A DNA stretch of 64,000 bases from Halogeometricum pallidum JCM 14848 (GCF_000337095.1 NZ_AOIV01000011.1:15594-79593), one strand, 5' to 3'. Shown: positions 6,490-48,771, counted from the first letter of the stretch. Notes: generated by a model from the sequence alone, not told the origin. Numbers and translations are program-made.

Positions 6490-6987
6490 TTACGGCTCCG
6501 TGTTCCAGTCCGGACTGACTCGGTAATCGTAAAGGCGGATGCCGGTCGTGACGACGACGAGCAGTACGACCGCCCATGTGATAATCGCGTGCGATCCGTT
6601 CAACGTGGCGAGCGTACTCCAGTCGATAGCGTCACCGACGAGGACGACGTCCGGATCGAGCGGAACCTGCCCCGTCGTCGCGTTGTCGGTTCCGTGCATT
6701 AGCATGGCTAACAGCACGCTCCCGTTCGATCCGTTGAACACCCACCCGAGGAGCACGGAGAACGCGATAATCCCCACGAAATAGGCGACGATAAGTTCGA
6801 GCGGCCAGTCGGCGCGGAATCCGCCAGGGATGAATTGGGGCAGGTGCCAGAGCCCCCAAAATACGCCGACGATGAGAGCCGCGGACAATCCGCCATACCG
6901 TTCTTGCAGTTCGGCTTGGACGACTCCGTCGAGAGAAACCGTTTCCTTCGGAAGACGGACGATTTGCATACTTTCGTTTGTCATCAT
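6490..6987 (-). pseudogene. CPBP protease remnant lacking the catalytic Glu pair
   Basis: 165 residues. From residue 27 on it reads like the second half of a CPBP protein: ELQERYGGLSAALIVGVFWGLWHLPQF and LAMLMHGTDNAT carry motifs 2 and 3. The preceding 26 residues (MMTNESMQIVRLPKETVSLDG...) are not the usual transmembrane half, and the EExxWRG motif is absent. Only 33 bases separate its start from the ABC permease gene, so the missing half is not nearby. It is probably an inactive fragment with a new N-terminus, last in the run 9744 to 6490 on the minus strand. Confidence 0.7.
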
Positions 6988-7020
6988 CGTGTTTGGTTTG
7001 TGGTGTTTCAGTAGTTGGCG

Positions 7021-7893
7021 CTACAGGTCTGCGGCGTTGAACCGGTAATACCCAACGAGGAACGGAACGACGAGCCAGAGGACGAGAACGACGATCCCCA
7101 CCTCCGGGATCAGGAAGAACGGGTCTGGCTCAACGGCAGTCGCTTCGACTCCAACGCTCGTCTGGGCGGGCGCTGCACCGGCAGTCTCTGCGAATCCAGG
7201 CAGGAGAGCGACGACCGTTGAGAGATACGCCGAAGACGGGGAAACCTGACTGACGAGGAAAACCCAGTCGGGCATTGTGGATGGAAGACTGAATCCGTTG
7301 ACTACGTAGACGAGCGCCATCGGGACGACGTCCCAGAGCAACTCGAAGACGACAAAGAATCCGAGTGCGAGTGTGGTCGCACGTGAAGTCGAACCCGTCG
7401 TGGCCGAGAGTCCGACCATGATTCCCGCGTAAATCGCCGCAAATCCGAGGGTCACGAGAGCGAATACGAGTGTAACACCAGGGCTGAGTGTCCCGAGCAG
7501 TACGGAGCCGAACCCTAATCCAACGAGGAGGCCGATACCGAGACCGAACACGAGAACGCCCGCTCGTCCGGCGACCTTTCCGGTGAAAACGTTCAGCCGG
7601 TTGGTCGGCAACGAGAGTAACAGCTTGATACTCCCGAGTTCGCGTTCGCCGGCGAGGGACTTGTAGCAGACCACAATCGCCGCAAGGGGCACGAACAGGC
7701 CGGTAAGGCCGACTGTGAAGAAAATGAGCCCGGCGAACGTCGCTCCCGTCGACTCACCAAGCATCTCGGGCACTTGGACGTACGCATACGTCGAAACGAG
7801 CGATAAGAGGACGAACACTGTCACGAGCGCCCAGAGCGCGCGTGACTGGACGGCATCTCGGAAGTCTTTCTTCGCAATTACCAGCCACGTCAT
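7021..7893 (-). CDS. ABC-2 type transporter permease
   Basis: 290 residues with six hydrophobic segments and the hallmark N-terminus of haloarchaeal ABC-2 permeases (WLVIAKKDFRDAVQSRALWALV). The cytoplasmic loop AGERELGSIKLLLSLPTNR is the typical ABC-2 coupling motif. It is the membrane half of an exporter; the ATPase is encoded immediately upstream and overlaps it by four bases. The substrate is unknown. The flanking CPBP proteases suggest a peptide or a lipid-linked compound (inference). Confidence 0.85.
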   Translation of the reverse strand: MTWLVIAKKDFRDAVQSRALWALVTVFVLLSLVSTYAYVQVPEMLGESTGATFAGLIFFTVGLTGLFVPLAAIVVCYKSLAGERELGSIKLLLSLPTNRLNVFTGKVAGRAGVLVFGLGIGLLVGLGFGSVLLGTLSPGVTLVFALVTLGFAAIYAGIMVGLSATTGSTSRATTLALGFFVVFELLWDVVPMALVYVVNGFSLPSTMPDWVFLVSQVSPSSAYLSTVVALLPGFAETAGAAPAQTSVGVEATAVEPDPFFLIPEVGIVVLVLWLVVPFLVGYYRFNAADL

Positions 7894-8810
7894 GCTCTGA
7901 CCTCCTGCTCGTCCTCAGTGTAGCGGACAAACAGGTCTTCGAGGGAGGACTCGACGACCGAGAAGTCCTGAATCGACGTTACGTGGGCGTCGATAGCTTG
8001 CAGAACGGCAAACTTCGAGGCATCATCGACGACGACTCGAATCCGACCGTCATCGATCGAAGCACTCCCGACACCGTCGAGTTCGGTGACTCGCTCGATA
8101 GTAGCTTCGTTGAGTTTAGAGACGTATATATACAGGACTTCGCCCGTTTCGGTCGCGTCGCGAAGGCCATCGATAGTATCGACGGCGACGAGTTGGCCGC
8201 GATTGATGATCGCCACCCGGTCACAGACCGCCTCGACCTGCTCCATGACGTGGCTGGAGAAGAACACCGTTGTTCCGCGTTCGTTCTCTTCTTGGATGAT
8301 CTCCCGCATTTCACGGGCTCCGTTCGGATCCAGTCCGGTAGACGGTTCGTCGAGGACGAGCAGGTCGGGGTCGCCAGCGAGCGCCATCGCGAGAACTAGC
8401 CGCTGCCGCATCCCTTTCGAATACCCGCCAGCTTTCCGGTCAGCGGCGTCGGCGATGCGAACCCGTTCAAGAAGTTCGTTCACGTCCTCGCTCGAACCTT
8501 TCATCTCCAAAACGAACTCCAGGTGTTGCCGGCCAGTCAACCGTTCGTAGACGTGGTAGGCATCCGGGAGAACGCCGGTTTTCCGCCGCACGGCTTCACC
8601 CTCTCGCTGAGCGTCGTGGCCGAGAACAGTCACGGTACCTGCTGTCGGACGGACAAAGTCGAGCAGAATGTCGATCGTCGTGGACTTCCCTGCGCCGTTC
8701 GGGCCGAGGAACCCGAAGATCTCTCCTTCCTCGACGCGCAAGTCAAGGTCGTTGACGGCGACGACGTCTCCGAACTGTTTAGTCAGACCATCGATATCGA
8801 TTGCAGCCAT
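7890..8810 (-). CDS. ABC transporter ATP-binding protein
   Basis: 306 residues. Walker A is FGFLGPNGAGKST (about residues 33-45), the signature is GGYSKGMRQRL (about 129), Walker B is LLVLDEPSTGLD (about 150-161) and the switch histidine is SSHVMEQV. A C-terminal extension of about 80 residues is typical of DrrA/CcmA-type exporters. It pairs with the ABC-2 permease that overlaps its stop. The upstream CPBP gene ends 58 bases before this start, so the three probably form one operon. Confidence 0.9.
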   Translation of the reverse strand: MAAIDIDGLTKQFGDVVAVNDLDLRVEEGEIFGFLGPNGAGKSTTIDILLDFVRPTAGTVTVLGHDAQREGEAVRRKTGVLPDAYHVYERLTGRQHLEFVLEMKGSSEDVNELLERVRIADAADRKAGGYSKGMRQRLVLAMALAGDPDLLVLDEPSTGLDPNGAREMREIIQEENERGTTVFFSSHVMEQVEAVCDRVAIINRGQLVAVDTIDGLRDATETGEVLYIYVSKLNEATIERVTELDGVGSASIDDGRIRVVVDDASKFAVLQAIDAHVTSIQDFSVVESSLEDLFVRYTEDEQEVRA

Positions 8811-34312: not shown

Positions 34313-35847
34313 CGGTACATCCCTCCTCGAATGAACGCCGCTCGGATCAGGACGATGACGGGGATTATCTCGAGCCGGCCGATCCACATGTTGAACAGGA
34401 ACATCACCTTCGTCACGGTCGGCATCGACGGACCCGTGATTCCCGACGAGAGTCCGACGTTCCCCTGCGCCGACGCCACCTCGAAGACGACGTTTGCGAG
34501 CGTGAATCGCTCCGGAAGTGCCGCGAGGAGAACGAACACGCCGAGACCGAGGAAGATGACCCACAAAAACGAGATGATTGCGGCCTCGGTGAACTCCCGA
34601 TTGGCCTCGGTCTCCGTCATGTCCCGACCGTTCAGTTTGAAGTGACGAATCGCTGAATCGGGATAGAAGACGTCACTGATACGGAACGCGGTGCCCTTCA
34701 CGAGCGTAAGTGCGCGGACGAGTTTGATCCCTCCCACAGTCGATCCCGCCGCACCACCGACGACCATACCGAGTGAGACGGTGAGTTGCGCTTCGGCGGG
34801 CCAGCGCTGACCGAGCGACCCCGCCGTCTGGAAACCCGTACAGGACGCGGCGGAGACGAACTGAAAGACTCCGTACCGGAGTGCCTCGAACGCCGAATCG
34901 TACGTATTGTTCGCGAGTAGCATTCCCCACAGCGCGACGGTTCCGAGCGCAAAGAACCCGAACACCCACCGCGTCTGCAAGTCGGCGTAGAGGTTTCGCA
35001 ACTCCCCGTTGAGCATGAGGTAGTGGATGGGAAAGGCGATGCTCCCCAGAATCATCACGGGCAGGAGCGCGAAATCGATGACAGCGCTGTCGTAGGTGGC
35101 GATGCTGTTGTCGGTGATAGAGAATCCGCCGGTCGCCAGTCCCGTCATCGCGTGATTGATGGCGTCCCACAGGGGCATCCCGGCGAGCCAGAGAACGAAG
35201 ATGGAGACGAACGTGAACAACAGAAATATCCACCAGATAGTCCGTACCGTAGAGACTATACTCGGGTGTATCTTCTCCGAACGGGCCTCCGACTCATAGA
35301 GCGTGAGCGACCCGCTTCCCTGCCGTGAGAGAATCGCCGTCGTGAGCACGATGACGCCGACGCCGCCGACCCACTCGGTGAACGACCGCCACCACTGCAG
35401 CGTCGCCGGGAGGACCGACTCGTCGTCGGTCATCGTCAGCCCGGTTCCGGAAAATCCGCTCATCGACTCGAAAACTGCGTTCAACGGATTTCGGAATGCT
35501 GCTAGCGTCGCCGTGTCGACCGACGGCGGAACGGCGAGAACGGTGGGATCGAGAGACGCCGTCCACGCGATGAAGAGAAACGGAAGCGCTCCGAACAGCG
35601 CGACGGAGAACCATCCAGCCGCGGCGATCATCATCCCGTGTAGCTTCCCCGGTTCGGGGGCGTCGGCGAAGTACGTCGAGAGTCCTCGACCGATGAGGAA
35701 GGGGAGCACGCCCGCCAACAGTAACGACGGTATCGCCCAGAACTCGCGCCAGATGAGCGGCACGAGAGTCGAGAACAGAACCATCCCCGCGAGGGCTTGT
35801 AACATCCTGCCGAGGTCGCGTGCGATGGTCTGTAGGGTCGTGTTCAT
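34309..35847 (-). CDS. trkH: TrkH-type potassium uptake membrane subunit
   Basis: 512 residues from ATG 35847. Four pore repeats can be seen, each with a selectivity Gly: FSGTGLTMT (about 128), TGLATGGFSITDNS (about 225), SCTGFQTAG (about 330) and SAQGNVGLSSGITG (about 450). The GGAAGSTVGGIKLVRAL intramembrane gate loop lies at about 350-366. TrkH conducts K+ inward and is gated by ring-forming TrkA. The trkA gene is upstream with a gap of 18 bases. Confidence 0.9.
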   Translation of the reverse strand: MNTTLQTIARDLGRMLQALAGMVLFSTLVPLIWREFWAIPSLLLAGVLPFLIGRGLSTYFADAPEPGKLHGMMIAAAGWFSVALFGALPFLFIAWTASLDPTVLAVPPSVDTATLAAFRNPLNAVFESMSGFSGTGLTMTDDESVLPATLQWWRSFTEWVGGVGVIVLTTAILSRQGSGSLTLYESEARSEKIHPSIVSTVRTIWWIFLLFTFVSIFVLWLAGMPLWDAINHAMTGLATGGFSITDNSIATYDSAVIDFALLPVMILGSIAFPIHYLMLNGELRNLYADLQTRWVFGFFALGTVALWGMLLANNTYDSAFEALRYGVFQFVSAASCTGFQTAGSLGQRWPAEAQLTVSLGMVVGGAAGSTVGGIKLVRALTLVKGTAFRISDVFYPDSAIRHFKLNGRDMTETEANREFTEAAIISFLWVIFLGLGVFVLLAALPERFTLANVVFEVASAQGNVGLSSGITGPSMPTVTKVMFLFNMWIGRLEIIPVIVLIRAAFIRGGMYR

Positions 35848-35865
35848 GATTGGGGATTCAACCAC

Positions 35866-36558
35866 TCAGGATAGTTCTGTGTGATCTTCGTAGTGACCGA
35901 ATATGTCGGTCACGTCCGGTGTCGCGCCTCGAGCGGAGTAGACCGTAACTATGTCTCCCACGTGGATCACCGTATTTCCTCGCGGGGTAATCGGGCCGTC
36001 TGCGTCCTCGCGTGCGATAGCGACGACGAGGGTATCGTCGGGGAGTAAGCCTTCCTCCGCCGCTTCGGAGAGACGTCTGTCGACGATCGGCGCTGACTCG
36101 GTGACTTCGATCTCGAACACCTCGGCCTGGTCGCCGACGCGCATGTAGTCGACGATAGTGGGGCGCTGGACTGCACGGAAGAGGTGGTCGGCGATGAGGC
36201 GAGAGGGGTTCTCCATCGTGTTGACGCCGATACGGCGGAAGATGTCCATATGCTCGGGGTTGTGGACCACCGAGACGATCGATGGAATGTTGAGTTCCTT
36301 AGCGAGCAGCGAGATCATGATATTCGTCGCGTCCTGGTCGGTCGTCGAGATGATCGCATCGGCGCGGTCGGCACCGGCGTCCTGCAGCGTCTCTTTGATG
36401 GTCGCGTCGTCGTGGATGACGAGACAGTCGAACTCGCTGGCGACAGCTTCCGCCTTCTCGCGGTCGCGTTCGACGACGACGACCTCGTTTCCCGCGGTAC
36501 TGGCAATGTGAATGAGCGGCGTCCCGATGTCGCCGGCCCCGACGATGATGAGATACAT
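35866..36558 (-). CDS. trkA: TrkA-type potassium uptake regulator (RCK_N + RCK_C)
   Basis: 230 residues. Rossmann motif MYLIIVGAGDIGTPLIHIAS with acidic VVVERD for NAD(H), ISTTDQDATN, and then TrkA_C at about 140-220 (VFEIEVTESAPIVDRRLSEA ... VVAIAREDADGPITPRGNTV). It is the first gene of trkA-trkH-small membrane protein. A box TTTTAAAA at 36580-36587 lies 22-29 bases before the ATG, indicating a leaderless transcript. Confidence 0.9.
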   Translation of the reverse strand: MYLIIVGAGDIGTPLIHIASTAGNEVVVVERDREKAEAVASEFDCLVIHDDATIKETLQDAGADRADAIISTTDQDATNIMISLLAKELNIPSIVSVVHNPEHMDIFRRIGVNTMENPSRLIADHLFRAVQRPTIVDYMRVGDQAEVFEIEVTESAPIVDRRLSEAAEEGLLPDDTLVVAIAREDADGPITPRGNTVIHVGDIVTVYSARGATPDVTDIFGHYEDHTELS

Positions 36559-36579
36559 AGCCTTGGTTTCTGAATCGTT

Positions 36580-36587
36580 TTTTAAAA
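36580..36587 (-). promoter_or_regulatory. TATA box of the trkA-trkH operon
   Basis: TTTTAAAA on the minus strand, centred about 25 bases before the trkA ATG at 36558. Confidence 0.55.
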
Positions 36588-36657
36588 CCCTGCCGTTTTG
36601 CTTATTGCACAGAGATAGGATCCATGATTACGTCTGGAGTAATTCAGTGAGGGAGAG

Positions 36658-36664
36658 TTAAATA
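36658..36664 (+). promoter_or_regulatory. TATA box of the DUF6788-like gene
   Basis: TTAAATA, 23 bases before the ATG at 36687; fits a leaderless start. Confidence 0.5.
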
Positions 36665-36686
36665 GGAGCGGCGATACCGACGTTGT

Positions 36687-37058
36687 ATGGGAGACGGTTC
36701 CGTGGAGCGAGATTGGCCAACACTGAGCGAAGACCTCACCACCCAACTGGATGGCCTAACGGCGCAACAACTCCGTGAAGTCATTGAATACGCCCAGTGG
36801 CGACTTCGCGAGATGCACCAACCCGTCTCCAGGCAGATCGAGGCAGGACCCGGCGAAGAAATACTCTCCGTCGAGGATCGACCGGAGTACACGAAAGTCG
36901 TGAAACGTGAACCGTGCGGCGATGACTGTCCGGACTGCCCTCACGGTCCCTATCTCTACCATGTCTACGAGGAAATTCACCCAGATAGAGAGTCTTCGCT
37001 TCATTGGGTGTTCCTCGGTCGTCTTTACGAACCTCCCTCGAAGAACTCGCCGGACTAA
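36687..37058 (+). CDS. DUF6788-like small protein
   Basis: 123 residues. A helical N-terminus (LTTQLDGLTAQQLREVIEYA) is followed by a Cys cluster CGDDCPDCPHGPYLYHVYEE. The C-x3-C-x2-C-P-H-G-P-Y-x-Y pattern is that of DUF6788-like proteins, a family with unknown function often found with mobile DNA. Divergent from trkA, with its own TATA box. Confidence 0.6.
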   Translation: MGDGSVERDWPTLSEDLTTQLDGLTAQQLREVIEYAQWRLREMHQPVSRQIEAGPGEEILSVEDRPEYTKVVKREPCGDDCPDCPHGPYLYHVYEEIHPDRESSLHWVFLGRLYEPPSKNSPD

Positions 37059-37144
37059 CCCGATCGATGCCATCTCGAGAGAACACACTCTCGAACCATC
37101 TCCGATAACCAGCAGTACTGAACGAGAGAAGTCAGTGATCAGCC

Positions 37145-37895
37145 CTACTGGAGGTCACCGCTGAACGCAGCAATCGTCTCTTCCGGAAAGCCGCCGCGTG
37201 CGAAGAGGGTAACGAGGTCGTCAGCCCGAATATGGGTGTTTCCCCGCGGTGTGATGATATTTTCGTCACGCTCCACCGATACGACGAGAACTTTCGGTGC
37301 GATGACGCTGCGTTCGTTCGCTTCTTGGAGAGTCATACCTTCGATTTTCGCGTCGTGAGTGACGCTTACTTCGACTACTTCTGCTCCCCCGGATAGAGAC
37401 ATGAAGTCGGCGATAGACTTCCTCCCCCGCCGTCCATCCGGGCCAAAAGTATGATTGGGTCGACACTCTTCGTGTTGGAGCAAGTGTTCGTCCTCGATTT
37501 CGAGGCCCAACTGAGAGATGTCTCGGGTGATCCGTGAGAGCTCCTGTGCGTCTTCGCCGACCGTGGTGATGTGGATGTTTCCGGTTCCGCACATGAGTTG
37601 TCGAACGCTCACAACACTGGGGATATCCGCAATTTGTTTCGTGATACGCTCTCGAACGCCGATATCGGCAGTGCCGACGACGAGATTAGCCAGTCGTCCT
37701 TCCGCCTGCTCGTAATCGATGTGTGCGTGATAGCTGCGGATGACGCCGTCCCCCCTCCAACTGATTGATACGGTTCCTAATCGTTCCTGCGGAGACGCTC
37801 GCCTCCTCGGCCACCATCGGGGCGGAGACGTTTCGTGCGTCGCGGGCGAGGTAGTAGAGGATGCGCTTGTCGACTTCGTCCAGTCGGTCGACCAT
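37145..37895 (-). pseudogene. Lrp/AsnC-type regulator with TrkA_C domain, frameshifted in a G6 run
   Basis: Starts MVDRLDEVDKRILYYLARDA ... SVSAGTIRNRINQLEG (HTH). At the G6 tract (C6 on the plus strand, 37750-37755) the reading fails; with five G it continues DGVIRSYHAHIDYEQAEGRL and a TrkA_C domain (VVEVSVTHDAKIEGMTLQEA ... VVSVERDENIITPRGNTHIR) to the stop at 37145. Same architecture as the intact protein at 28214. One-base homopolymer difference, so either a recent mutation or a read error. A short transposable element sits 25 bases before its start. Confidence 0.8.
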
Positions 37896-37919
37896 ACTGT
37901 CTTTTCGTTCACGACACCT

Positions 37920-38302
37920 GTGACATCCTCCCCACCCTACTCGCGCTTTCGGCGCTCGTTGAGGGTGGGGCTTCCCACGAAGTCGGTCTTCGCTGGTTTG
38001 GGAACCTCGGGTTTGTATCCCGTCGTAATACAGGGAGTGCCACGCCCCCGTTATCCCTATCCTCGTTGGATTCGGGAGTACCTGAGTTGTTTTCTGACGG
38101 TATCCACAGCGGGCGAACCGACGGAGATACCGTCGAACGACCGAGTGGAACTCCCGATACAGTCTCATTACATCGGGCGGATGGACCGCCTCGGTTGTAT
38201 CACAGACGGGCTGTACCTCGGTGAATCTACCGATGACGGCGCTGTATCTCCACCCTGCTCGCTCCCTGCGGTCGCTCGCTGAGGATGGGGTCTTAGCGCC
38301 TG
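37920..38302 (-). mobile_element. Non-autonomous IS605-type element (MITE-like), about 380 bp
   Basis: Right tip at 37920 (minus strand GGGAAGCCCC ... GGGGAGGATGTCAC), with stem AGGGTGGGG / CCCCACCCT (37962-37970 with 37930-37938); this tip is identical to that at 124-137. The left end at about 38250-38302 (GGCGCTAAGACCCC ... GGGTGGAGATACAGCGC) matches the left end of the tnpB element at 30887. No tnpA or tnpB between. It lies directly upstream of the Lrp-like gene and must have displaced its promoter. Confidence 0.7.
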
Positions 38303-38591
38303 TTCAGCCAGATAACTGGACCGTCGTCGTAGAGTTGACCGATAGCCGCCGCAACTTGGACGTACACTCTCGCTCTGACGGGACGTTCGATGAGGACGAG
38401 TATCTGAGACAGGTCCTCGTCGATCTCCTCAAGTTCGGGAATCTACTTCCGTTTCTTCTCCGGCATCGATGTGTAAACTCGTGAGAAGTCGTGTTGAAAG
38501 AGTTCGGTGAAAGTCTCTTTCTATTTCGGATACTGTCATGGGGAATAGAAAGCGATGGCTTTTCACTCGCACCACCGGCAGGGGTAATCGA

Positions 38592-39275
38592 ATGTACATC
38601 ATCGTCGTCGGGGCGGGGAACATTGGTACCCCTCTCATCGAAATCGCAACGCGGGGCGGTAACGAGGTCGTCGTTATCGAACGCGACGAGGTGAAAGCCG
38701 AATCCGCCGCCAGCAATTTTGACTGTTTGGTTATCAACGACGACGCAACTGCGATGGGCACGCTTGAAGAGGCGGGCGCCGACCGCGCGGACGCGCTCAT
38801 CTCGACCACCGATCAAGACGCGACGAACGTCATGGTCTGTTTGCTCGGCCAGGAACTGGAGATTCCGTCCATTGTCTCGGTCGTCCACGATGCAGAGCAC
38901 ATGGACCTCTTCCGACGAATCGGCGTCAATACGATGGAGAACCCCTCCCGACTCATCGCCGATCACCTCTACAGGGCAGTGAGGCGCCCCTCCATCATCG
39001 ACTACATGCGCATCGGCGAACGGGCGGAGGTGTTCGAGATAATAGTTGACGAGGAGGCGTCCATCGTCGGGAAGACTATCGAAGAAGCGGCGTCAGAGGG
39101 GTTGCTGGGCGACGAAATGCTCATCGTCGCCGTCGAACGCGAGGATTCGAAGAATCCGATCACGCCCCGCGGGAACACGCGAGTGGAGGCCGGCGACCTC
39201 CTGACGGTGTACTCCGCCGAGGGTGCGACCCCGGACGTGACCGACGTCTTCGGCCACTTCGAGGATCACGAATGA
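38592..39275 (+). CDS. trkA: TrkA-type potassium uptake regulator (RCK_N + RCK_C)
   Basis: 227 residues from ATG 38592, chosen because the Rossmann strand MYIIVVGAGNIGTPLIEIAT begins there. NAD-binding acidic residue in VVIERDE; TTDQDATNVMVCLL; TrkA_C from about 140 (VFEIIVDEEASIVGKTIEEA ... IVAVEREDSKNPITPRGNTR). Very similar along its length to the product at 35866, so the two Trk systems are paralogous. trkH follows 40 bases later. Confidence 0.9.
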   Translation: MYIIVVGAGNIGTPLIEIATRGGNEVVVIERDEVKAESAASNFDCLVINDDATAMGTLEEAGADRADALISTTDQDATNVMVCLLGQELEIPSIVSVVHDAEHMDLFRRIGVNTMENPSRLIADHLYRAVRRPSIIDYMRIGERAEVFEIIVDEEASIVGKTIEEAASEGLLGDEMLIVAVEREDSKNPITPRGNTRVEAGDLLTVYSAEGATPDVTDVFGHFEDHE

Positions 39276-39315
39276 GACGGCCGGACCGTCCCGACGAACC
39301 GTCGAACGGAGAAAT

Positions 39316-40998
39316 ATGAGACGACCGACCGTAGACGGATGGTCCGCGGATCTGGCGACGATCTCCCGCGACATCGGGTCGCTCCTCGCGATGGAATCGG
39401 CGCTCATGGGGTTCTCGGTGCTCGTCGCACTCCTCTTCGGCGAGTGGTACCCCGCGGCGGGGTTCCTTCTCGCGGGCGTGATCACCGCATCCGTCGGTCT
39501 TTCCGCCCGGCTGCGGTTCGAGGACGCGCCGGCCCCGCAGATGAAACACGGGATGATCATCGCCGCGGCAGGCTGGTTCTCCGTCGCCGTCTTTGGATCG
39601 ATTCCGTTGATATTGGCCGCGCACCTGACGCCGCCGTCAGTGATGGCGACGTACGTCCCCGCCGACGTCGACACGACGGGGTGGGAGGCGATCGCAGTCG
39701 GTAGCACGACGACGGTTTCGAGCCTCGCGTACTTCCAGAACCCGCTGCACGCCCTGTTCGAGAGCATGAGCGGGTGGACAGGGAGCGGCCTGACGATGGC
39801 GATTCACGAACCATCGCTACCGCGTTCAATGCAGTGGTGGCGGTCGCTCATCCAGTACGTGGGGGGCGTCGGGGTGATCGTTCTCACGGTGTCGATTTTA
39901 GCGCGACCGGGCAGCGGGAGCTACGCGCTCTACCGCAGCGAAGCCCGCGAAGAGCGGATCCATCCGAGCGTTATCTCGACCGTCCGGACGGTGTGGAAGA
40001 TTCTCCTCCTGTACACGGGGGTCTCGATACTCCTGCTTTTCGTTGCCATCTGGGCGAGCGACTACGGAAAGACGCTTCCGCTGTGGGAGGTCGGCTGGCA
40101 GGCGCTCAATCACGCGATGACCGGACTCACGACGGGCGGGTTCTCGGTCACCGACAACTCGATCGCGACGTACGACTCGCCGCTCATCGAGACGGCCCTG
40201 TTGCCGATCATGACGCTCGGTGCGATCGCCTTTACCGTCCACTACGGCGTGCTGTGGAACGACGAGGTCGACCTCCTGTACGAAGACCTCCAGACGCGCT
40301 GGCTGTTCGTCCTGCTCGCGATCGGTATCACTGTGCTGTCGGTACAGAACTTCGTCGCGACCCCGACGGAAGCGGACGCCTTCGTCGGAGACTGGTTCGG
40401 TCTCGCGGCGCTCTTCGGCGAACGCCACGTCGTCGTGTTCCGCGATTCGCTGTTTCAGTGGGTGAGCGCGCTGACGTGTACCGGATTCCAGTCGGCGCCG
40501 ATCAACCGGTGGAGTTCGGGTGGCAAACTGATCGTCTCTGTGGCGATGACTCTCGGCGGCGCCGCCGGGAGCACCGTGGGAGGGATCAAGATCATCAGAG
40601 GATACACCATCAGTCGAGGCATCCGCTGGCAGTTCGCGCGCGTGTTCCTGCCGGCGAACGCGGTGGTAAACCTCGATATCGGCGACCGGCACCTCGACCG
40701 CGAGGAGATGGAACGGGAGTTCAGCGAGGCGGCGATCATCTCGCTGCTCTGGATATTCCTATTGATCGCTAGTAGCATCGTTCTCGTGAACCTCGCGGGA
40801 CCGGAGTACGGCTACGCTGACGCCCTCTTCGAAATCGCCAGCGCGCAAGGCAACGTCGGACTCTCGTCGGGTATCACTGGTCCGTCGATGCATCCGTTCG
40901 CCGAAGCGATGTTCCTATTCAACATGTGGATCGGCCGCTTGGAGATCATTCCTGTGCTGGCGTTCATTCGGTCGATCCTCTACGGACTCGATCCGTGA
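39316..40998 (+). CDS. trkH: TrkH-type potassium uptake membrane subunit
   Basis: 560 residues. Pore-repeat Gly motifs: GWTGSGLTMA (about 155), TGLTTGGFSVTDNS (about 272), TCTGFQSAP (about 392) and SAQGNVGLSSGITG (about 513). Gate loop GGAAGSTVGGIKIIRGYTIS. About 48 residues longer than the 34309 protein, mainly by inserts near 115-135 and 345-370. Same strand as trkA at 38592. It ends where a damaged accessory segment begins. Confidence 0.9.
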   Translation: MRRPTVDGWSADLATISRDIGSLLAMESALMGFSVLVALLFGEWYPAAGFLLAGVITASVGLSARLRFEDAPAPQMKHGMIIAAAGWFSVAVFGSIPLILAAHLTPPSVMATYVPADVDTTGWEAIAVGSTTTVSSLAYFQNPLHALFESMSGWTGSGLTMAIHEPSLPRSMQWWRSLIQYVGGVGVIVLTVSILARPGSGSYALYRSEAREERIHPSVISTVRTVWKILLLYTGVSILLLFVAIWASDYGKTLPLWEVGWQALNHAMTGLTTGGFSVTDNSIATYDSPLIETALLPIMTLGAIAFTVHYGVLWNDEVDLLYEDLQTRWLFVLLAIGITVLSVQNFVATPTEADAFVGDWFGLAALFGERHVVVFRDSLFQWVSALTCTGFQSAPINRWSSGGKLIVSVAMTLGGAAGSTVGGIKIIRGYTISRGIRWQFARVFLPANAVVNLDIGDRHLDREEMEREFSEAAIISLLWIFLLIASSIVLVNLAGPEYGYADALFEIASAQGNVGLSSGITGPSMHPFAEAMFLFNMWIGRLEIIPVLAFIRSILYGLDP

Positions 40999-41297: not shown

Positions 41298-41501
41298 ATC
41301 ATCTCGGTTGCGGCGCTCGCGTTCATCACGTTCTTCGGCTTCTCGGCGATCGCCGCCAGCGCCGGCGAAATCATCGAACCGCGGAAGGCGGTTCCGAAGG
41401 CGATCGCGGTCAGTATGATCACCGTGACCGTACTGTACACGTTCGTCATCATCGCGATGGTGAACGCGCCGGTTTCTGACAGCGTTCTGCAGGTGGGTGA
41501 G
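41298..41501 (+). pseudogene. Internal fragment of an APC transporter
   Basis: About 68 residues: ISVAALAFITFFGFSAIAAS AGEIIEPRKAVPKAIAV and a further helix. FFGF-x-x-IA-x-x-(A/G)-E-x-x-x-P-x-(K/R)-x-(I/V)-P is the TM6-TM7 motif of APC permeases. Both ends are missing; at its 3' side it runs directly into the duplicated HhH segment in the same frame region. Confidence 0.7.
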
Positions 41502-41742
41502 CTTGCTCGTCGAGACGACCCGGCTCGTGACGCTCGGCGCGAGTTCGGCCACCGCCGACCTCCTCACACGGCTCGGCAAGACCGGTCGGACGATCACAGG
41601 AGCGGATCCCGAGGATCTCCTCAAGCGGATCCGAACGGGGATTACCGAGGGCGAGCTCCCGGAATCGGACGGCTTTGACCCGGCGATCTCGGAGTTAGGG
41701 CCCCTCGTTGCGAACGCCAATCGGTTCGGAACCCATGACTAA
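41497..41742 (+). pseudogene. C-terminal copy of the HhH/beta-sandwich protein
   Basis: About 80 residues (LVETTRLVTLGASSATADLL ... FDPAISELGPLVANANRFGT) nearly identical to the end of the protein at 47442. It lacks the HhH core and N-terminal domains, and is a duplicate tail stranded beside an APC fragment. Confidence 0.75.
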
Positions 41743-41838
41743 TGGAGGGCGGTTATCGGAGTGGCCACCAATCAAGATCGTCGCAACGAACTGGCCCACT
41801 AGGGTGACCGTCGTGGTCGACTGCGATCCGAAGAGAGG
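41499..41838 (+). repeat. Segmental duplication, copy A (of 48371-48707)
   Basis: About 340 bases aligned to 48371-48707 with scattered substitutions, mostly at third codon positions of the HhH-protein tail, and one 3-base length difference near 41805. Copy A carries only the 3' end of the HhH gene plus the following small ORF. Confidence 0.85.
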
Positions 41839-41872
41839 TGCGAGTGGGATGGTTATTTTCGACGACACGTAG
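41735..41872 (+). CDS. Small ORF following the HhH tail, copy A
   Basis: 45 residues, MTNGGRLSEWPPIKIVATNW, then a Val-rich strand and DCDPK. The paralogous ORF at 48607 begins with the same 13 residues. The length difference between copies is exactly one codon, which favours a real protein over chance. The start overlaps the end of the preceding frame (CATGACTAA). Function unknown. Confidence 0.45.
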   Translation: MTNGGRLSEWPPIKIVATNWPTRVTVVVDCDPKRGASGMVIFDDT

Positions 41873-42292: not shown

Positions 42293-43219
42293 ATGGCAAC
42301 CAGTGACTCATCGGCCTCCTTCGAGGAGACCGACACGCGACACGACGAGATGCACAGTACGATCGAAGCATGGATCGATGACCTCGTTGACGATATCGAT
42401 GCGGCGCAGGCCAGCGACGAGTTCCAAGAGTGGTTAGACGTCCAGAGTCGCTTCCACGACTATTCGCACCGAAATACGCTGCTCATCAAACGCCAGTGTC
42501 CTCAGGCAACGAAGGTCGCCGGCTACAACACGTGGCGGAACGACTTCGATCGGCACGTCCAAGAAGGCGAACAAGCGATCTGGATTTGGGCGCCGATCAT
42601 CACCAAGCGATGTCCCGAGTGTGAGAACTCGCCCAGCTACCACGAGAATACTGATTGTGAGTACGACGAGACACCATCCGAAGAGTGGTCGAAAGGCCTC
42701 GTCGGATTCAAACCAGCACCAGTCTTCGACGTCTCCCAGACTGAGGGGGAACCGCTTCCCGAACTGGAGACCGCAGCGTTTGGCGATACTGAGGACCTGG
42801 TGCCAGCGCTCACAAGGGCAGCTGATGAGCTCGGTGTGACGGTCCGCATCGTCGACGCTGACGAGTGGGAATACGGCGACGCGAAAGGCGTCTGCAAGCA
42901 GCGAAGTTTCCACGATCTCACACCAGTCGTTGAGGTGAAAGCCCGTCCGAACCAAGCGGACCTTGCGGTCACGCTAATTCACGAGTACGCTCATACACTG
43001 CTTCATTTCGACCTTGATGACAAGGACAAACGGTCGAAACGTGAGGTCGAAGCTGAGGCCATCGCGTACATCGTCGGTCGGTATTTCGGACTCGATACAA
43101 GCGGGTCTGCATTCTATCTTGCCGCGTGGCAGGAAGATAACTCTCAAGAGATCCAAGATCGTCTCGGGTGGATCAGTTCGACCGCTCAAAGGATCATCGA
43201 AGCAGTAGCCGAGGGGTGA
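42293..43219 (+). CDS. ArdC/ImmA-like zinc metallopeptidase
   Basis: 308 residues from ATG 42293; the in-frame codons before it overlap the leader hairpin. Residues 15-150 resemble the ArdC-type ssDNA-binding domain (FQEWLDVQSRFHDYSHRNTL, VAGYNTWRNDFDRHVQEGEQ), with a Cys insert CPECEN...CEYDE. The peptidase part has HEYAHTLLHF (zinc HExxH) and a distal Glu in EVEAEAIAYIVGRYFGL. Members act against restriction systems or cut repressors (ImmA/IrrE) on mobile elements. Likely a plasmid or integrative-element gene. Confidence 0.75.
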   Translation: MATSDSSASFEETDTRHDEMHSTIEAWIDDLVDDIDAAQASDEFQEWLDVQSRFHDYSHRNTLLIKRQCPQATKVAGYNTWRNDFDRHVQEGEQAIWIWAPIITKRCPECENSPSYHENTDCEYDETPSEEWSKGLVGFKPAPVFDVSQTEGEPLPELETAAFGDTEDLVPALTRAADELGVTVRIVDADEWEYGDAKGVCKQRSFHDLTPVVEVKARPNQADLAVTLIHEYAHTLLHFDLDDKDKRSKREVEAEAIAYIVGRYFGLDTSGSAFYLAAWQEDNSQEIQDRLGWISSTAQRIIEAVAEG

Positions 43220-43500: not shown

Positions 43501-43860
43501 CTAGTCGAGCGAACCGTCCGTCTCTGTCGCCCATTCGAGTAGCGGTTCGAGACGCCTGCGGACTTCGTGACCATTCTCTGTCAGCGCATACTCTACACGC
43601 GGTGGAATCTCATTATACTGCGTGCGTGAGATTAGTTCCGCTTCCTCGAACTCGTCCAACCGTTTTGAGATAGTTGAGGTACTCGCACTCGTAAGGTGAG
43701 CTTCGATTTCGGCGAAACGAAGGAAGTCGTGAGCACCGATGATGCTCACCAATTGCATCGCGTACTTCCGACTGAGCGTATCGATTACGCCCGTTAGCGG
43801 ACAGTAGCACGTCCCGTCTACGTCGCACGTCGGCTCCGGTGAGGAAGTAGCGTCTGCCAT
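43501..43860 (-). CDS. HxlR-family winged-helix regulator
   Basis: 119 residues. The N-terminal Cys cluster C-x4-C-x-C (CDVDGTCYCPLTGVIDTLSR) is followed by the HxlR winged helix (KYAMQLVSIIGAHDFLRFAE ... STSTISKRLDEFEEAELI ... YALTENG). HxlR proteins often sense redox or electrophiles through the Cys. Divergent from the MerA-like gene, with 78 bases between starts, so it probably regulates it. Confidence 0.8.
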   Translation of the reverse strand: MADATSSPEPTCDVDGTCYCPLTGVIDTLSRKYAMQLVSIIGAHDFLRFAEIEAHLTSASTSTISKRLDEFEEAELISRTQYNEIPPRVEYALTENGHEVRRRLEPLLEWATETDGSLD

Positions 43861-43938: not shown

Positions 43939-45276
43939 ATGACGAATCTGCACTCGTATGACCTCGTGATTCTCGGCGGTGGCGCAGCGGCCTTCGCGGC
44001 TATCACGGAGGCCGACCGGCGGGGCCTCTCAACCGCGATGGTGAACACTGGACTGCCACTCGGCGGGACGTGCGTGAACGTCGGCTGTGTGCCGAGCAAG
44101 CACCTCCTCGAAGTAGCGAAAACGGCCTACGAGCCGCCGCACAACCCCTTCGACGCGGTCGAATACGACGATGACCAGCCCACCACGGACTGGGCTGCGG
44201 CCATCGACGAAAAGGACGAGATAGTCGCATCGCTGCGCGAACAGAACTACGTCGACGTGGCGGAACACTTCGACACGGACGTCTACGAGGGATACGGCCG
44301 CTTCGTCGATGATGCGACCATCGGAGTCGTTGAGGGCGCCGACGCCGGCACGACGATTACCGGAGAGAAAGCGCTCGTCGCGACCGGTAGTTCTCCGGAT
44401 ATCGCACCTATCCACGGCATCGACGCGGTGAGTTACGAAACCAGTGAGAGCATCCTCGACCGCCGCGACCTCCCTGAGAGCGTCGTGATGATTGGTGCCG
44501 GATACGTCGCGATGGAGTGGGGCCAGATCCTCCACCGCATGGGAGCGGACGTGACGATACTCCAACGGTCGAGCCACGTCTTGTCCAGTATGGAGGGGCT
44601 GCTCGGACGCGAACTCCGGCGGTGCTTCGAGGTAGAGGGAATCGCTGTCGAGACGGACGTGGACGTCCAGCGCGTCTCCGAGGGCAGCGAGACGGAAGAG
44701 GGTGTCACTGTTGAGGCCGCCGTCGACGGTATTTCGCGGACGTTTGCGACCAGCGACCTCTTCGTGGCCACTGGCGTCAGCCCGAACACCGACGATATCG
44801 GACTAGACGAAATCGGCGTCGAGACCGAGGTGTCGGGCGCAGTCGTCGTTGACGATGAGTTCCGGACGGCGAACCCCGACGTGTACGCCGCGGGCGACTG
44901 CATCGGAGAACCGATGCTGGAGACCGTCGCCGCCAAGGAGGGCAACCACGCAGTGAGGAACGCGTTCGGAGAGAAGAGCGCGACCGTCGACTACCACGTC
45001 GTCCCGAAGGTGGTGTTCACGAGCCCGGAGGTGGCCGCCGTCGGGACGACGGAACTCGAGTACATGGACGAACACGGAATCTGCACGTGCCGGACGGTGG
45101 AGATGGAGGATGTCCCGAAGGCGAAGGCCGTTGAAGACACTCGTGGGTTAGTGCAGGTCGTCAAACACCACGAGACCGACGAGATCGTCGGCGTCCACAT
45201 GGTCGGGCCGCGGGCCGCCGACATAATTCCCGAGGCGACGCTGGCAGTCAAATTCGGTCTCGCCGTCGACACGTGA
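43939..45276 (+). CDS. MerA-like pyridine nucleotide-disulfide oxidoreductase, short C-terminus
   Basis: 445 residues. FAD motif YDLVILGGGAAAFAAITEAD; redox-active disulfide GGTCVNVGCVPSKHLLE (Cys about 47 and 52); NADPH motif VVMIGAGYVAMEWGQIL; second FAD motif VYAAGDCIGEPML. The order and the residues before CVNVGC are those of mercuric reductases. The dimerisation domain stops at LAVKFGLAVDT; about 35 residues with the aromatic or His-Glu element and the terminal Cys pair of MerA are missing. No N-terminal HMA domain. Possibly truncated and inactive, or a different disulfide reductase. Confidence 0.75.
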   Translation: MTNLHSYDLVILGGGAAAFAAITEADRRGLSTAMVNTGLPLGGTCVNVGCVPSKHLLEVAKTAYEPPHNPFDAVEYDDDQPTTDWAAAIDEKDEIVASLREQNYVDVAEHFDTDVYEGYGRFVDDATIGVVEGADAGTTITGEKALVATGSSPDIAPIHGIDAVSYETSESILDRRDLPESVVMIGAGYVAMEWGQILHRMGADVTILQRSSHVLSSMEGLLGRELRRCFEVEGIAVETDVDVQRVSEGSETEEGVTVEAAVDGISRTFATSDLFVATGVSPNTDDIGLDEIGVETEVSGAVVVDDEFRTANPDVYAAGDCIGEPMLETVAAKEGNHAVRNAFGEKSATVDYHVVPKVVFTSPEVAAVGTTELEYMDEHGICTCRTVEMEDVPKAKAVEDTRGLVQVVKHHETDEIVGVHMVGPRAADIIPEATLAVKFGLAVDT

Positions 45277-45418
45277 ACGGTGGATGACTCGGCGTGTCGG
45301 GCCATCAGGTATCGCTCGTTACGACCGCTAGGCGCCCGCAGCCCCGGACTGTCCCTCAGAATCAACAGTCCGGTATTTATCAGATATGTTATTATACTAT
45401 AGTGATGTTTGTTACCTG

Positions 45419-46513
45419 ATGGCACTAACCGCGGGACAGGATCTGTACGCCTCAGTCGGCGAGGAGGGACTCAATCGGTTCGTTCGGCATCTGTTCCGTC
45501 AGCGTCCCTCTCTGTTCACCTTCGCAACGCCGGGCATCGCCGCGTACGCGGACGAGTTTCTCGATCCAGCGGTTCCGCTGTCGGGCGCACAGGTCGCGCG
45601 GAGCCAGCCCCGCGTCAGCGAACTGTCGAGGATTCCCGTGCTCGGGACAGACGGCCCCGTCGAACTGGAGTACTGCGTGCAGCTGACGGCTTTCGAGTTC
45701 GACTTCCATCCCGGCGACGAGTTCGAGCTCCCCGTGGGCGGAGAGCTGGAGGCACAGCAGTTCGGCGTGCACGCGGCGTTCGCCGTGGGGCTCGGCTGTC
45801 CAAAGGATGCTGCCCCAGATTTCAGACGACGGATCCGTGACCGGTCGATCTTCGAGGGAAATGTCCTGAGTGTCCTCCAGTCCCGAGGAGTCGAAACGCC
45901 CCCCGGTCAACGGTCGGTCGACCGCGGGGAGGCCATGGACGGATTGACGGGCGGACGCCCGCTCGCTGACGGCGGCCGAGCGTCGGGGTCGGCGTCGGTA
46001 GCGCGGTTCGGCTTCTTCCCCGCCGGACCGGGGCGGGACCGGTTCGGCGGCGGCGACCAGCGAGTCCTCGCCCCGCCGGACGTGGAGTTGATCAGGAAGC
46101 CGGACGTCACGATGCACCGCTTCGAGCTGCACGCGTTCCTCGTCGGCGGCGTCGACATCGGAACCGACGGGGACGAGGACGGAAACGGGGACGCGTTCGC
46201 GTTCGAACTTGACCACCTCGAACTCGGCGGGGGAGACGACGGCTCGGCGATCGATCTTCCGACCGGCCTGAAGAACAGCATCGAGTGCTACGTCGACCTC
46301 TACGTCAGGCACGTCGTCCTGCCGAGCGTCTCGGAGATGATCCAGAGCACCGTCGCGAGCGTCCTCGACAACGACCTCCTGAAGACGGAGCTCACGCCGG
46401 AGGATCCGACGGCCCGCTTCCCGGAGACGGATGCGATTCCCGACAACCCGAACCTCGCGGACGACCGGCTCGAAGTGTATGTCGACCTCGACATCACGGG
46501 AGACGGGCAGTGA
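45419..46513 (+). CDS. Unknown beta-rich protein A of a four-gene operon
   Basis: 364 residues from ATG 45419; TTATTATA at 45389-45396 lies about 25 bases upstream, fitting a leaderless start. No signal peptide or membrane helix. The N-terminus LYASVGEEGLNRFVRHLFRQ is matched by VAVSEDGLNEQLQAV in the next protein. The rest alternates polar and hydrophobic residues as in long beta strands (VELEYCVQLTAFEFDFHP, RFELHAFLVGGVDIG), with a Gly/Asp-rich linker at about 155-220. The shape hints at a lipid-binding TULIP-like or similar fold (weak inference). Overlaps the next gene (GTGA). Confidence 0.65.
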   Translation: MALTAGQDLYASVGEEGLNRFVRHLFRQRPSLFTFATPGIAAYADEFLDPAVPLSGAQVARSQPRVSELSRIPVLGTDGPVELEYCVQLTAFEFDFHPGDEFELPVGGELEAQQFGVHAAFAVGLGCPKDAAPDFRRRIRDRSIFEGNVLSVLQSRGVETPPGQRSVDRGEAMDGLTGGRPLADGGRASGSASVARFGFFPAGPGRDRFGGGDQRVLAPPDVELIRKPDVTMHRFELHAFLVGGVDIGTDGDEDGNGDAFAFELDHLELGGGDDGSAIDLPTGLKNSIECYVDLYVRHVVLPSVSEMIQSTVASVLDNDLLKTELTPEDPTARFPETDAIPDNPNLADDRLEVYVDLDITGDGQ

Positions 46514-47445
46514 GCCAGCTGACCGTCGCCGTCTCGGAGGACGGCCTGAACGAACAGCTGCAGGCTGTCCAGGAGAACGTCGCCGTCGAGATCGAGGGGA
46601 CGTTCGGGGAGGGCGGGTTCGAGGTGGCGTACGAACTGGGCGTCAGACTGGAGGAGGGGACCGTCGAACTTCGGCCCGACCGGTTCGACCTGGACGAACT
46701 CGATGTCGTCTACGACCCGGTGCGCTTCGAGGTCCGGTTCGATATCCCGGAGCTGTGTACCCCGTCCGTCTGCATCCCCGGCTTCCTGGGCCTCGGCGAG
46801 ACGTGCCTCCCCCAGATATGCTTGTTCGAGACCGACCCCGACCTCTCGTTCGTCCTGGACCTCGGTGGCATCGTAGAGTCGGAGGTGTCGGCACTGCTGG
46901 CGGCGCACGTCGAGTTCTTCGAGAACCCCGACCGGACGCCCGGGATGACCGACCTCGACGCGTACGACGACGACGTGCTGGACGCGTGGCACGTCGTGAT
47001 CGAGCCGGTCACGTTCGACATCGACATCGTGGACTTGGCGGACACGGTCGGGAACGCTCTGGAAAAGCGACTGGGCGACGAGATCCAGTCCCTCATCGAC
47101 GCGATCCCGGGCGCCTCGCAGGTGATTTCGGCCGCAGCCGTCTTCGACTTCCTCCGCGACACCTTCGACATCTTCGACGACCTCCAAGAGGCGATCCACG
47201 ACGAGTTCGAGACGGGAGCCAGCCTCGGCGGGACGATCCTCTTCGAGCTGGCCGAGCAGTTCGCCCGCACGAAGCCCATCACCATCCCGACGCCGTTCCC
47301 CGCCGCGGAGGACGACCCCGAGACGGCGGCGGAGGAGGGTCGGGACGTCGTACTCGTGCCAGTGCTCCTCCCGCTGGAGCGCCCGCGGGTGGAGGTGACC
47401 GACGAGGAACTGATCGTTGGCCTGGACGTGGGGGTGGAACAGTGA
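46510..47445 (+). CDS. Unknown beta-rich protein B with two CX4C pairs
   Basis: 311 residues from GTG 46510 overlapping the stop of protein A. It begins SQLTVAVSEDGLNEQLQAVQ, then repeated long strands (FEVAYELGVRLEEGTVELRP, YDPVRFEVRFDIPELC). Four cysteines form two CX4C pairs (CTPSVC and CLPQIC, residues about 82-107), rare in haloarchaeal cytosolic proteins and possibly a metal site or disulfides. A helical region at about 175-250 (LGDEIQSLIDAIPGASQVIS) precedes a final strand-rich part. Related to protein A in start motif and layout. Overlaps the next gene (GTGA). Confidence 0.65.
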   Translation: MSQLTVAVSEDGLNEQLQAVQENVAVEIEGTFGEGGFEVAYELGVRLEEGTVELRPDRFDLDELDVVYDPVRFEVRFDIPELCTPSVCIPGFLGLGETCLPQICLFETDPDLSFVLDLGGIVESEVSALLAAHVEFFENPDRTPGMTDLDAYDDDVLDAWHVVIEPVTFDIDIVDLADTVGNALEKRLGDEIQSLIDAIPGASQVISAAAVFDFLRDTFDIFDDLQEAIHDEFETGASLGGTILFELAEQFARTKPITIPTPFPAAEDDPETAAEEGRDVVLVPVLLPLERPRVEVTDEELIVGLDVGVEQ

Positions 47446-48614
47446 CGCTACGAGCCAACCGGCACGTCCTAGCAGCGACCCGTGTAGACAGCGGTGCGCT
47501 GACTCAGGTCGGCGTCGTGCTCCACCGGTTCGACGAACCCGGGACGTACCAGTGCCGGGTCTTTCGCGGCGAACGGCTCGCGGGCCGCTGCTTCGTCGTC
47601 GTCGACCCCGACGCCGGGGCCTCGGACGCGACCGTCGACCTCGCCGAGGTCGGACACGACGGCTCCACGCCGTCGACGGGCGCCATCGAGGCGGACGACC
47701 CGACGTACCGCGTTCACCCGAACGGGGTCGTCATCTTCCACGTCTCGCGCGGTCCGGGTAGTTACCACGTGGTCGCCAGCCGACCACGGGACGGCGGCGA
47801 GGGGTTCGAGACGGTGTTCGACAGCACCAGCCTCGGCACCGACGACGTCTTCCTCGCCCGACCGGTACGACCGGGCCGCTACACGGTGACGAACGCTCAC
47901 TCGAACGCGGAGGGCGAACTGGTGGTGACCCGTCCCGAGGAAGGTGACCTCTTCACGCCGCGAGTGCCGGTGTCCGCGACGATCGGTGGTGCTGTCGACC
48001 CCGAACGCGTCGAGACGGTCGCCGCGCAGGGCGTCGCGTACCGCGTCGAGCGCCGCGCTCGCGTCGTCGTCGAACACGAGGCGGACCTCGAGTCCGACCG
48101 CGAGGACGAGAACCGGGAGCCAGTACGACCCCGTCCTCGGCCTCGTCCCGGCCGATCAATCGTCGGACGGCGGCCGTCCGACGACCGCTTCACGCTCGTC
48201 CACCCCGAGATCGGGGAGCGTTCGGACGCGATCCCGGTGGACGTGATCGAGTCGATCGGCGAGGCGAACGCTGGGGGGCTGGCGAGCGTGGGCGTCAGGT
48301 CGGTGGCCGACCTCGCCCGGATGAACCCTGCATCCGTCGCGCGTGCGATCGACGCGAGCCCCGAGCGGGCGAGCCGGCTCGTCGAGACGGCCCGGCTCGT
48401 GACGCTCGGCGCGAGTTCGACCACCGCCGACCTTCTCACACGGCTCGGCGAGACCGGTCGGACGATCGCGGGAGCGGATCCCGAGAATCTCCTCAAGCGG
48501 ATCCGAACGGGGATTGCCGAGGGCGAGCTCCCGGAATCGGACGGCTTCGACCCGGCGATCTCGGAGTTGGGACCTCTCGTCGCGAACGCTAATCGGTTCG
48601 GAGTCCATGACTAA
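47442..48614 (+). CDS. Beta-sandwich/HhH protein C of the unknown operon
   Basis: 390 residues from GTG 47442. Two beta-sandwich-like repeats lie at about 10-75 (ALTQVGVVLHRFDEPGTYQC RVFRG) and 88-165 (VIFHVSRGPGSYHVVASRPR). A disordered Arg/Pro/Asp linker (about 215-250) follows, then a helix-hairpin-helix module (VIESIGEANAGGLASVGVRS, VADLARMNPASVARAIDASP) as in DUF4332-type domains, and a conserved tail of 80 residues. The gene is visibly GC-rich: 47 of 60 bases at 48001-48060. The tail is duplicated at 41497. Function unknown; the HhH could bind DNA or protein. Confidence 0.65.
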   Translation: MTLRANRHVLAATRVDSGALTQVGVVLHRFDEPGTYQCRVFRGERLAGRCFVVVDPDAGASDATVDLAEVGHDGSTPSTGAIEADDPTYRVHPNGVVIFHVSRGPGSYHVVASRPRDGGEGFETVFDSTSLGTDDVFLARPVRPGRYTVTNAHSNAEGELVVTRPEEGDLFTPRVPVSATIGGAVDPERVETVAAQGVAYRVERRARVVVEHEADLESDREDENREPVRPRPRPRPGRSIVGRRPSDDRFTLVHPEIGERSDAIPVDVIESIGEANAGGLASVGVRSVADLARMNPASVARAIDASPERASRLVETARLVTLGASSTTADLLTRLGETGRTIAGADPENLLKRIRTGIAEGELPESDGFDPAISELGPLVANANRFGVHD

Positions 48615-48707
48615 TGGAGGGCGGTTATCAGAGTGGCCGCCAATCAGGATCGTCGCGACGAACTGGCCCGCTATCGTAATCAAGCTCGACTGCGATCCGA
48701 AGATAGG
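48371..48707 (+). repeat. Segmental duplication, copy B (of 41499-41838)
   Basis: The parent copy, continuous with the full HhH gene. Alignment with 41499-41838 starts in the middle of the HhH gene tail and ends inside the small ORF. Confidence 0.85.
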
Positions 48708-48771
48708 TGGAGGCGAGACAGTTAGACACGCCGACGTCCCCCGATTCGCCGATAGGTTTAGCCAACGATAG
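48607..48771 (+). CDS. Small ORF D of the unknown operon
   Basis: 54 residues starting inside the end of protein C (CATGACTAA), MTNGGRLSEWPPIRIVATNW, then IVIKLDCDPKIGGGETV. Conserved in the duplicate at 41735 with only in-frame length change. Too small for domain assignment; overlap suggests co-translation with protein C. Confidence 0.45.
   Translation: MTNGGRLSEWPPIRIVATNWPAIVIKLDCDPKIGGGETVRHADVPRFADRFSQR

Follow-up and report, generated by a model that had tools for sequence, protein, structure and literature searches.

A horizontally mobile three-gene operon of haloarchaea, Pseudonocardiales and a phage, tentatively interpreted as encoding a TULIP-like pair and a beta-rich partner

What does a compact block of overlapping genes encode when none of its products belongs to a catalogued family? 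This question is raised by a locus of Halogeometricum pallidum JCM 14848, lying within a 64,000-nucleotide stretch (referred to as a whole as the window) that forms part of the 280-kb contig C11 within a 4.38-Mb genome. The initial annotation described four overlapping genes, from 45419 to 48771, as a single translational unit resembling no described system. Three of them, all on the plus strand, prove to be real genes at the place claimed: gene A (45419..46513; 364 aa, N-terminal motif DLYASVGEEGLNRFVRHLFRQRPSLF), gene B (46510..47445; 311 aa, N-terminal motif LTVAVSEDGLNEQL, conserved cysteines at residues 83, 88 and 104) and gene C (47442..48614; 390 aa), the last encoding a conserved beta-rich core of about 230 aa, an Arg/Pro-rich linker and a C-terminal HHH module. 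The three are open frames with a successive frame shift, and two 4-base GTGA overlaps join A to B and B to C. Their third-position GC (0.82 in A, 0.91 in B and 0.83 in C) is of the coding type, and dN/dS values relative to the sister genome G063 (0.16–0.19 for A, 0.016 for B, where a single amino-acid change contrasts with 20 silent ones, and 0.19 for C) indicate that all three are selected as proteins, with the strongest selection on B. Gene A is taken to start at 45419 rather than 45386, because its homologues start at the corresponding methionine (MALTD/MGYTDH). An AT-rich candidate promoter (45374..45401, plus strand; TATTTAT and TTATTATACTATA), recognized by inspection only, is found at a suitable distance upstream of A.

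The fourth ORF (D; 48607..48771, plus strand) was left out of the unit. Similarity to the sister plasmid of G063 stops at 48712, inside this ORF, the 3' half of which is altered, and no counterpart of D is present downstream of C at the other A-B-C loci; only A-B-C recurs. The view that the block matches no described system was upheld for these three genes, as searches of Pfam, NCBIfam, PHROGs and PADLOC gave no family above chance for A, B or the C core. None of the three proteins had a match in a direct sequence search of the PDB. Neither A nor B has a signal-peptide-like segment, as originally stated, or a membrane segment.

The same A-B-C order was found in two other haloarchaeal genera (G033, with the operon at L003/L011, and G226, with the operon at L010), two Pseudonocardiales MAGs (L015 and L016) and one phage contig (L045), at 24–43% identity to the window or to one another. 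The identity of the G033 and G226 proteins to those of the window is 30–35% for A, 35–36% for B and 29–31% for C, and the G226 operon is carried by a 404-kb replicon on which ParA-like and Cdc6 genes are also present. At all of these loci, as in the window, the three genes are adjacent and on one strand, and the intergenic gaps within the operon range from -4 to +12 bases (window, G033, G226, L015 and L045); one copy in G063 is broken by a deletion. The genes also stay together across genomes, a check that had been proposed with the initial annotation: in an even sample of Halobacteria, A, B and the C core are each present in 3/394 genomes, and these are the same three. B is present in 2/250 genomes of the order to which the MAGs belong, these being the two MAGs only, and A in 1/17 genomes of the G033 genus and 1/18 of the G226 family; this rarity applies to the sampled groups, the scans of large collections having used short patterns. 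Homologues occurring separately, which had been put forward as an argument against a fixed set, were found for C only, in two Phyllobacterium records (L009:8986-9786 and L017:5986-6669) in which it lies beside formylmethanofuran-dehydrogenase genes, with neither A nor B found nearby. C can, thus, have another role; no such separate homologue was found for A or B. The plasmid and phage collections yielded no match to A or B, and matches to C in Phyllobacterium only. On the L009 plasmid, the deposited annotation gives a hypothetical protein on the opposite strand at the C homologue.

Several of these loci preserve traces of gain, decay and movement. In G063, a complete copy of the operon spans the ends of a 153-kb contig, and a second copy, in a context matching that of the window, has an internal deletion that begins inside B and extends as far as the end of C. 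The block common to the window and G063 starts at 45263-45365 and ends at 48712-48724, with no convincing transposon-type terminal repeats around the operon. The window itself contains the remnant of a second copy (41495..41844, plus strand), 350 bases that are 90% identical to 48367-48712, a segment that comprises the 3' end of C and extends past it. On the phage contig, the operon lies on the strand opposite the phage structural genes, between the terminase and the head-tail joining/portal genes, a position resembling that of accessory cargo. Operon gain, decay and movement are, thus, supported by the context of the G063 copies, the window remnant and the placement on the phage contig. The initial annotation had inferred transfer from base composition. 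The contrast on which it relied is real, with a GC of 0.680 for the operon against 0.593 for its surroundings, but it fails as evidence of transfer because four other contigs sampled from the same genome have a GC of 0.68–0.70, matching the operon, whereas the window contig (0.59–0.61) is AT-rich and looks plasmid-like. It is, therefore, the contig that departs from a chromosome-like composition, and at L011 and L045 the GC of the operon equals that of its surroundings. Horizontal mobility of A-B-C is nevertheless supported, on the basis of distribution and context rather than GC.

The proteins themselves were approached through sequence motifs and structure models. A and B have in common an N-terminal motif of the form strand-(S/H)ExGxN-helix (for example, QDLYASVGEEGLNRFVRHLF in A and SQLTVAVSEDGLNEQLQAVQ in B), which had been noticed at the outset and withstands statistical scrutiny: the best 20-residue ungapped score between the A and B families is 15.7, a value reached by 0/2000 shuffles (mean -0.7, sd 3.0, maximum 13.2), and hhalign, comparing the A and B profiles, picks the same stretch only (P 0.019). 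The motif supports a distant kinship or a common structural start, and not more; it sits at what we take to be the place of the strand-helix start of BPI. AlphaFold models were obtained for B of the window (pLDDT 64, pTM 0.52) and A of the phage contig (pLDDT 58, pTM 0.55), from separate alignments, and both consist of an N-terminal helix followed by long strands and then long helices. In searches of 350,542 PDB chains, the best four matches of the B model were BPI (E 0.007, prob 0.84), Der p 7 (two hits) and OrfX2, and OrfX1-OrfX3 ranked seventh. Those of the A model were BPIFA1 (two hits), LBP and SPLUNC1; BPI ranked seventh here, and thirteenth was a salivary BPI-like protein with oleate. 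Given the weakness of the models and their poor superposition (query-normalised TM-score ≤0.27, rmsd mostly >10 Å, no match below E 0.001), the TULIP structures are matched by local pattern. A search of a viral structure library with the B model returned no coherent family, and no A or B sequence matches any of the TULIP families of Pfam; the known TULIP families themselves often lack a sequence-profile match to one another (PMC6791001). Since the single matches are weak (best E 0.007; query-normalised TM-score ≤0.27), the TULIP-like fold modelled for A and B is graded as likely only. The suggestion that A and B are related, beta-rich proteins of a lipid-binding type is supported by the motif together with the TULIP structures drawn by both models. 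The low confidence of the models and the quality of their matches could instead mean that the fold has been misread, and that A, B and C, with no role involving lipids, form another beta-rich assembly, for instance a structural or adhesive complex. This seems rather unlikely, given that two models from separate alignments draw the same rare fold at the top and that the common motif occupies the presumed position of the BPI strand-helix start.

TULIP domains form a tube for hydrophobic molecules and often work as pairs (PMC5507252, PMC6791001), and the genes adjoining the operon in the Pseudonocardiales, the one neighbourhood to prove informative, provide an indication of what such a tube might hold. 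In the two related MAGs, C is followed by genes for an indole-prenyltransferase-like protein, a terpene-cyclase-like protein and a P450, with spacings of 9, -4 and 176 bases. The first of these proteins (358 aa) is weakly similar (26% identity over 87%, E 6e-3) to a protein from Streptomyces labelled "tryptophan dimethylallyltransferase family protein"; the Pfam Trp_DMAT model has no match in the two MAGs, so the prenyltransferase label derives from this one weak pairwise match. The next is squalene/hopene-cyclase-like (PF13243, E 1e-9). Among the TULIPs, Takeout and JHBP are carriers of isoprenoids and juvenile hormone (PMC5507252), and the Pseudonocardiales neighbours point to an isoprenoid-type ligand here too. 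No terpene-type genes adjoin the archaeal and phage operons, and the archaeal carrier genomes have neither the cyclase nor the prenyltransferase-like protein; the ligand in archaea might, speculatively, be a native isoprenoid lipid.

The explanation that we tentatively prefer, which may well be correct but falls short of being probable, is that A-B-C is a mobile operon encoding a pair of cytoplasmic TULIP-like carriers of hydrophobic ligands, possibly isoprenoids, and a beta-rich partner, C. A and B would each be a single TULIP-like tube of the BPI/LBP type and would probably be paired, as if the two halves of BPI were produced as separate, translationally coupled chains; the existence of two coupled genes for two TULIP-like proteins suggests a heterodimer resembling a two-chain BPI. 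We infer that the internal channel of the pair would accommodate a hydrophobic ligand, most likely a lipid of the isoprenoid type, for transport through the cytosol, and that C, with its beta-rich core and swappable C-terminal tail, would dock the pair to a membrane, an enzyme or another target. The fuller version, in which this operon encodes a cytoplasmic heterodimeric "split BPI" lipid shuttle of archaea, actinobacteria and phage, and thereby provides the first archaeal TULIP pair and a prokaryotic example of pairing, with isoprenoid-type cargo, is doubtful.

The chief rival explanation is that A-B-C is an anti-phage or inter-phage conflict system travelling as cargo and acting at the membrane via lipid-binding proteins. 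It would account for the location of the phage copy amid the terminase and structural genes, the very patchy distribution and the mobile, decaying copies in sister genomes, and it is in line with the ArdC-like gene 2.2 kb upstream in the window and with a separate neighbour of the operon in L016, a complete Kiwa pair (KwaA-KwaB, L016:1695-3415; PADLOC E 3e-20 for KwaA and 1e-16 for KwaB) lying ~0.8 kb upstream. However, Kiwa was seen at a single locus (the contig of the other MAG stops at A), PADLOC has no match to A, B or C among the window and L015 proteins, the operon has no effector enzyme and its tight downstream neighbours in the Pseudonocardiales are biosynthetic, and we regard a conflict system as unlikely. 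A functional relative of the clostridial-type orfX/P47 operons, the cytoplasmic TULIPs of which would chaperone or accompany a secreted protein, is very improbable: these operons have the same style, with several TULIP-type proteins each (OrfX2/OrfX3/P47, PF06597), they occur in scattered bacteria (PMC7020563), their products have been shown to bind lipids (PMC7020563) and the B model draws OrfX2 and OrfX1-OrfX3 as structural matches, but A-B-C has no match to PF06597 (the Clostridium P47 superfamily) and a different third protein, no toxin-like family was found among the neighbours scanned (window, G033, G226, L015/L016 and L045) and the literature cited contains no archaeal report of such operons.

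The preferred carrier-pair reading can be set against the TULIP proteins already described. A and B resemble BPI, LBP and PLUNC, their best solved-structure matches, in the strand-helix start, long strands and long helix of their models, but they have no sequence-level match to them and are archaeal and bacterial; BPI has two TULIP domains in one secreted chain, whereas A and B are two separate cytoplasmic proteins from one operon. Takeout and JHBP, with isoprenoid-type ligands, provide an analogue for the proposed A-B ligand (PMC5507252), and the family member Der p 7 matches the B model, but these proteins are secreted animal (arthropod) monomers with no sequence similarity to A or B. Bacterial TULIPs are already known, namely P47/OrfX, YceB, DUF4403, DUF2140 and DUF2993. 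YceB/DUF1439 and the three DUF families are, like A and B, prokaryotic, belonging to the bacterial envelope (PMC6791001); YceB is lipid-anchored and DUF4403 and DUF2140 have N-terminal hydrophobic signals (PMC6791001), whereas A and B have neither feature and no Pfam match. Should the modelled fold hold, A-B-C would be new relative to these proteins. TULIP proteins are lipid movers in eukaryotes and their origin is debated. A review from 2017 proposed that TULIP pairing began in prokaryotes, noting that there was as yet no evidence, and expressed hopes for archaeal sequences (PMC5507252); the word "archaea" is absent from the main text of this review (PMC5507252) and from that of the 2019 survey of bacterial TULIPs (PMC6791001). 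If the reading is correct, the occurrence of an operon with two TULIPs in both archaea and bacteria would open the question of a prokaryotic origin of pairing to direct testing, and would suggest that soluble carriers can serve as a mobile accessory to terpenoid biosynthesis. Three uncatalogued protein families gain a working hypothesis.

The C-terminal part of C is variable. The HHH module reported by the initial annotation is present in the window (48246..48395, plus strand; residues 269-318; PF14520, E 9e-6, just under the cut-off), where it is the sole domain recognized in the three proteins, but it is not a constant part of C, being found in the window and the sister genome only. In the other archaea, C has a different small helical tail, and the bacterial C ends after the core; the tail is, thus, lineage-specific, and the HHH module is weakened as a clue to a role involving DNA. 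A further 107 or so matches to C in Halobacteria were rejected, as they cover only profile positions ~201-291, and the two that were inspected proved to be the N-terminal module of EtfA-like proteins. In G226 and G033, the C-terminal tail of C is similar to this helical module of haloarchaeal EtfA-like proteins (L021, L022), a likeness hinting at a small shared interaction module.

Some minor features of the surrounding DNA were also observed. On the phage contig (L045:48-7990), the large subunit of the terminase is split over two overlapping frames, 6805-7212 and 7070-7990, and the stretch preceding the head-tail joining and portal genes carries an insertion, on the other strand, of A-B-C and a gene for a 329-aa protein. 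Within the window, an apparent transporter fragment runs into the remnant of the 3' end of C (41420-41844). The gene at 42293-43219, 2.2 kb upstream of the operon, combines an ArdC-type N-terminal domain with an IrrE-like peptidase domain, and the flank of this gene follows the complete operon copy of G063 (L013). The left edge of the mobile block lies at the 3' end of a mercuric-reductase-like gene (43939-45276; 439 bits with the MerA model, against a cut-off of 454), the product of which reaches only profile position 430 of 465; a gene for an HxlR-type regulator (43501-43860) diverges from it. Farther upstream (34376-40937), nested inverted similarities (75–87%) between 34.4-36.6 kb and 38.6-40.9 kb suggest the presence of two diverged homologous genes in opposite orientation.
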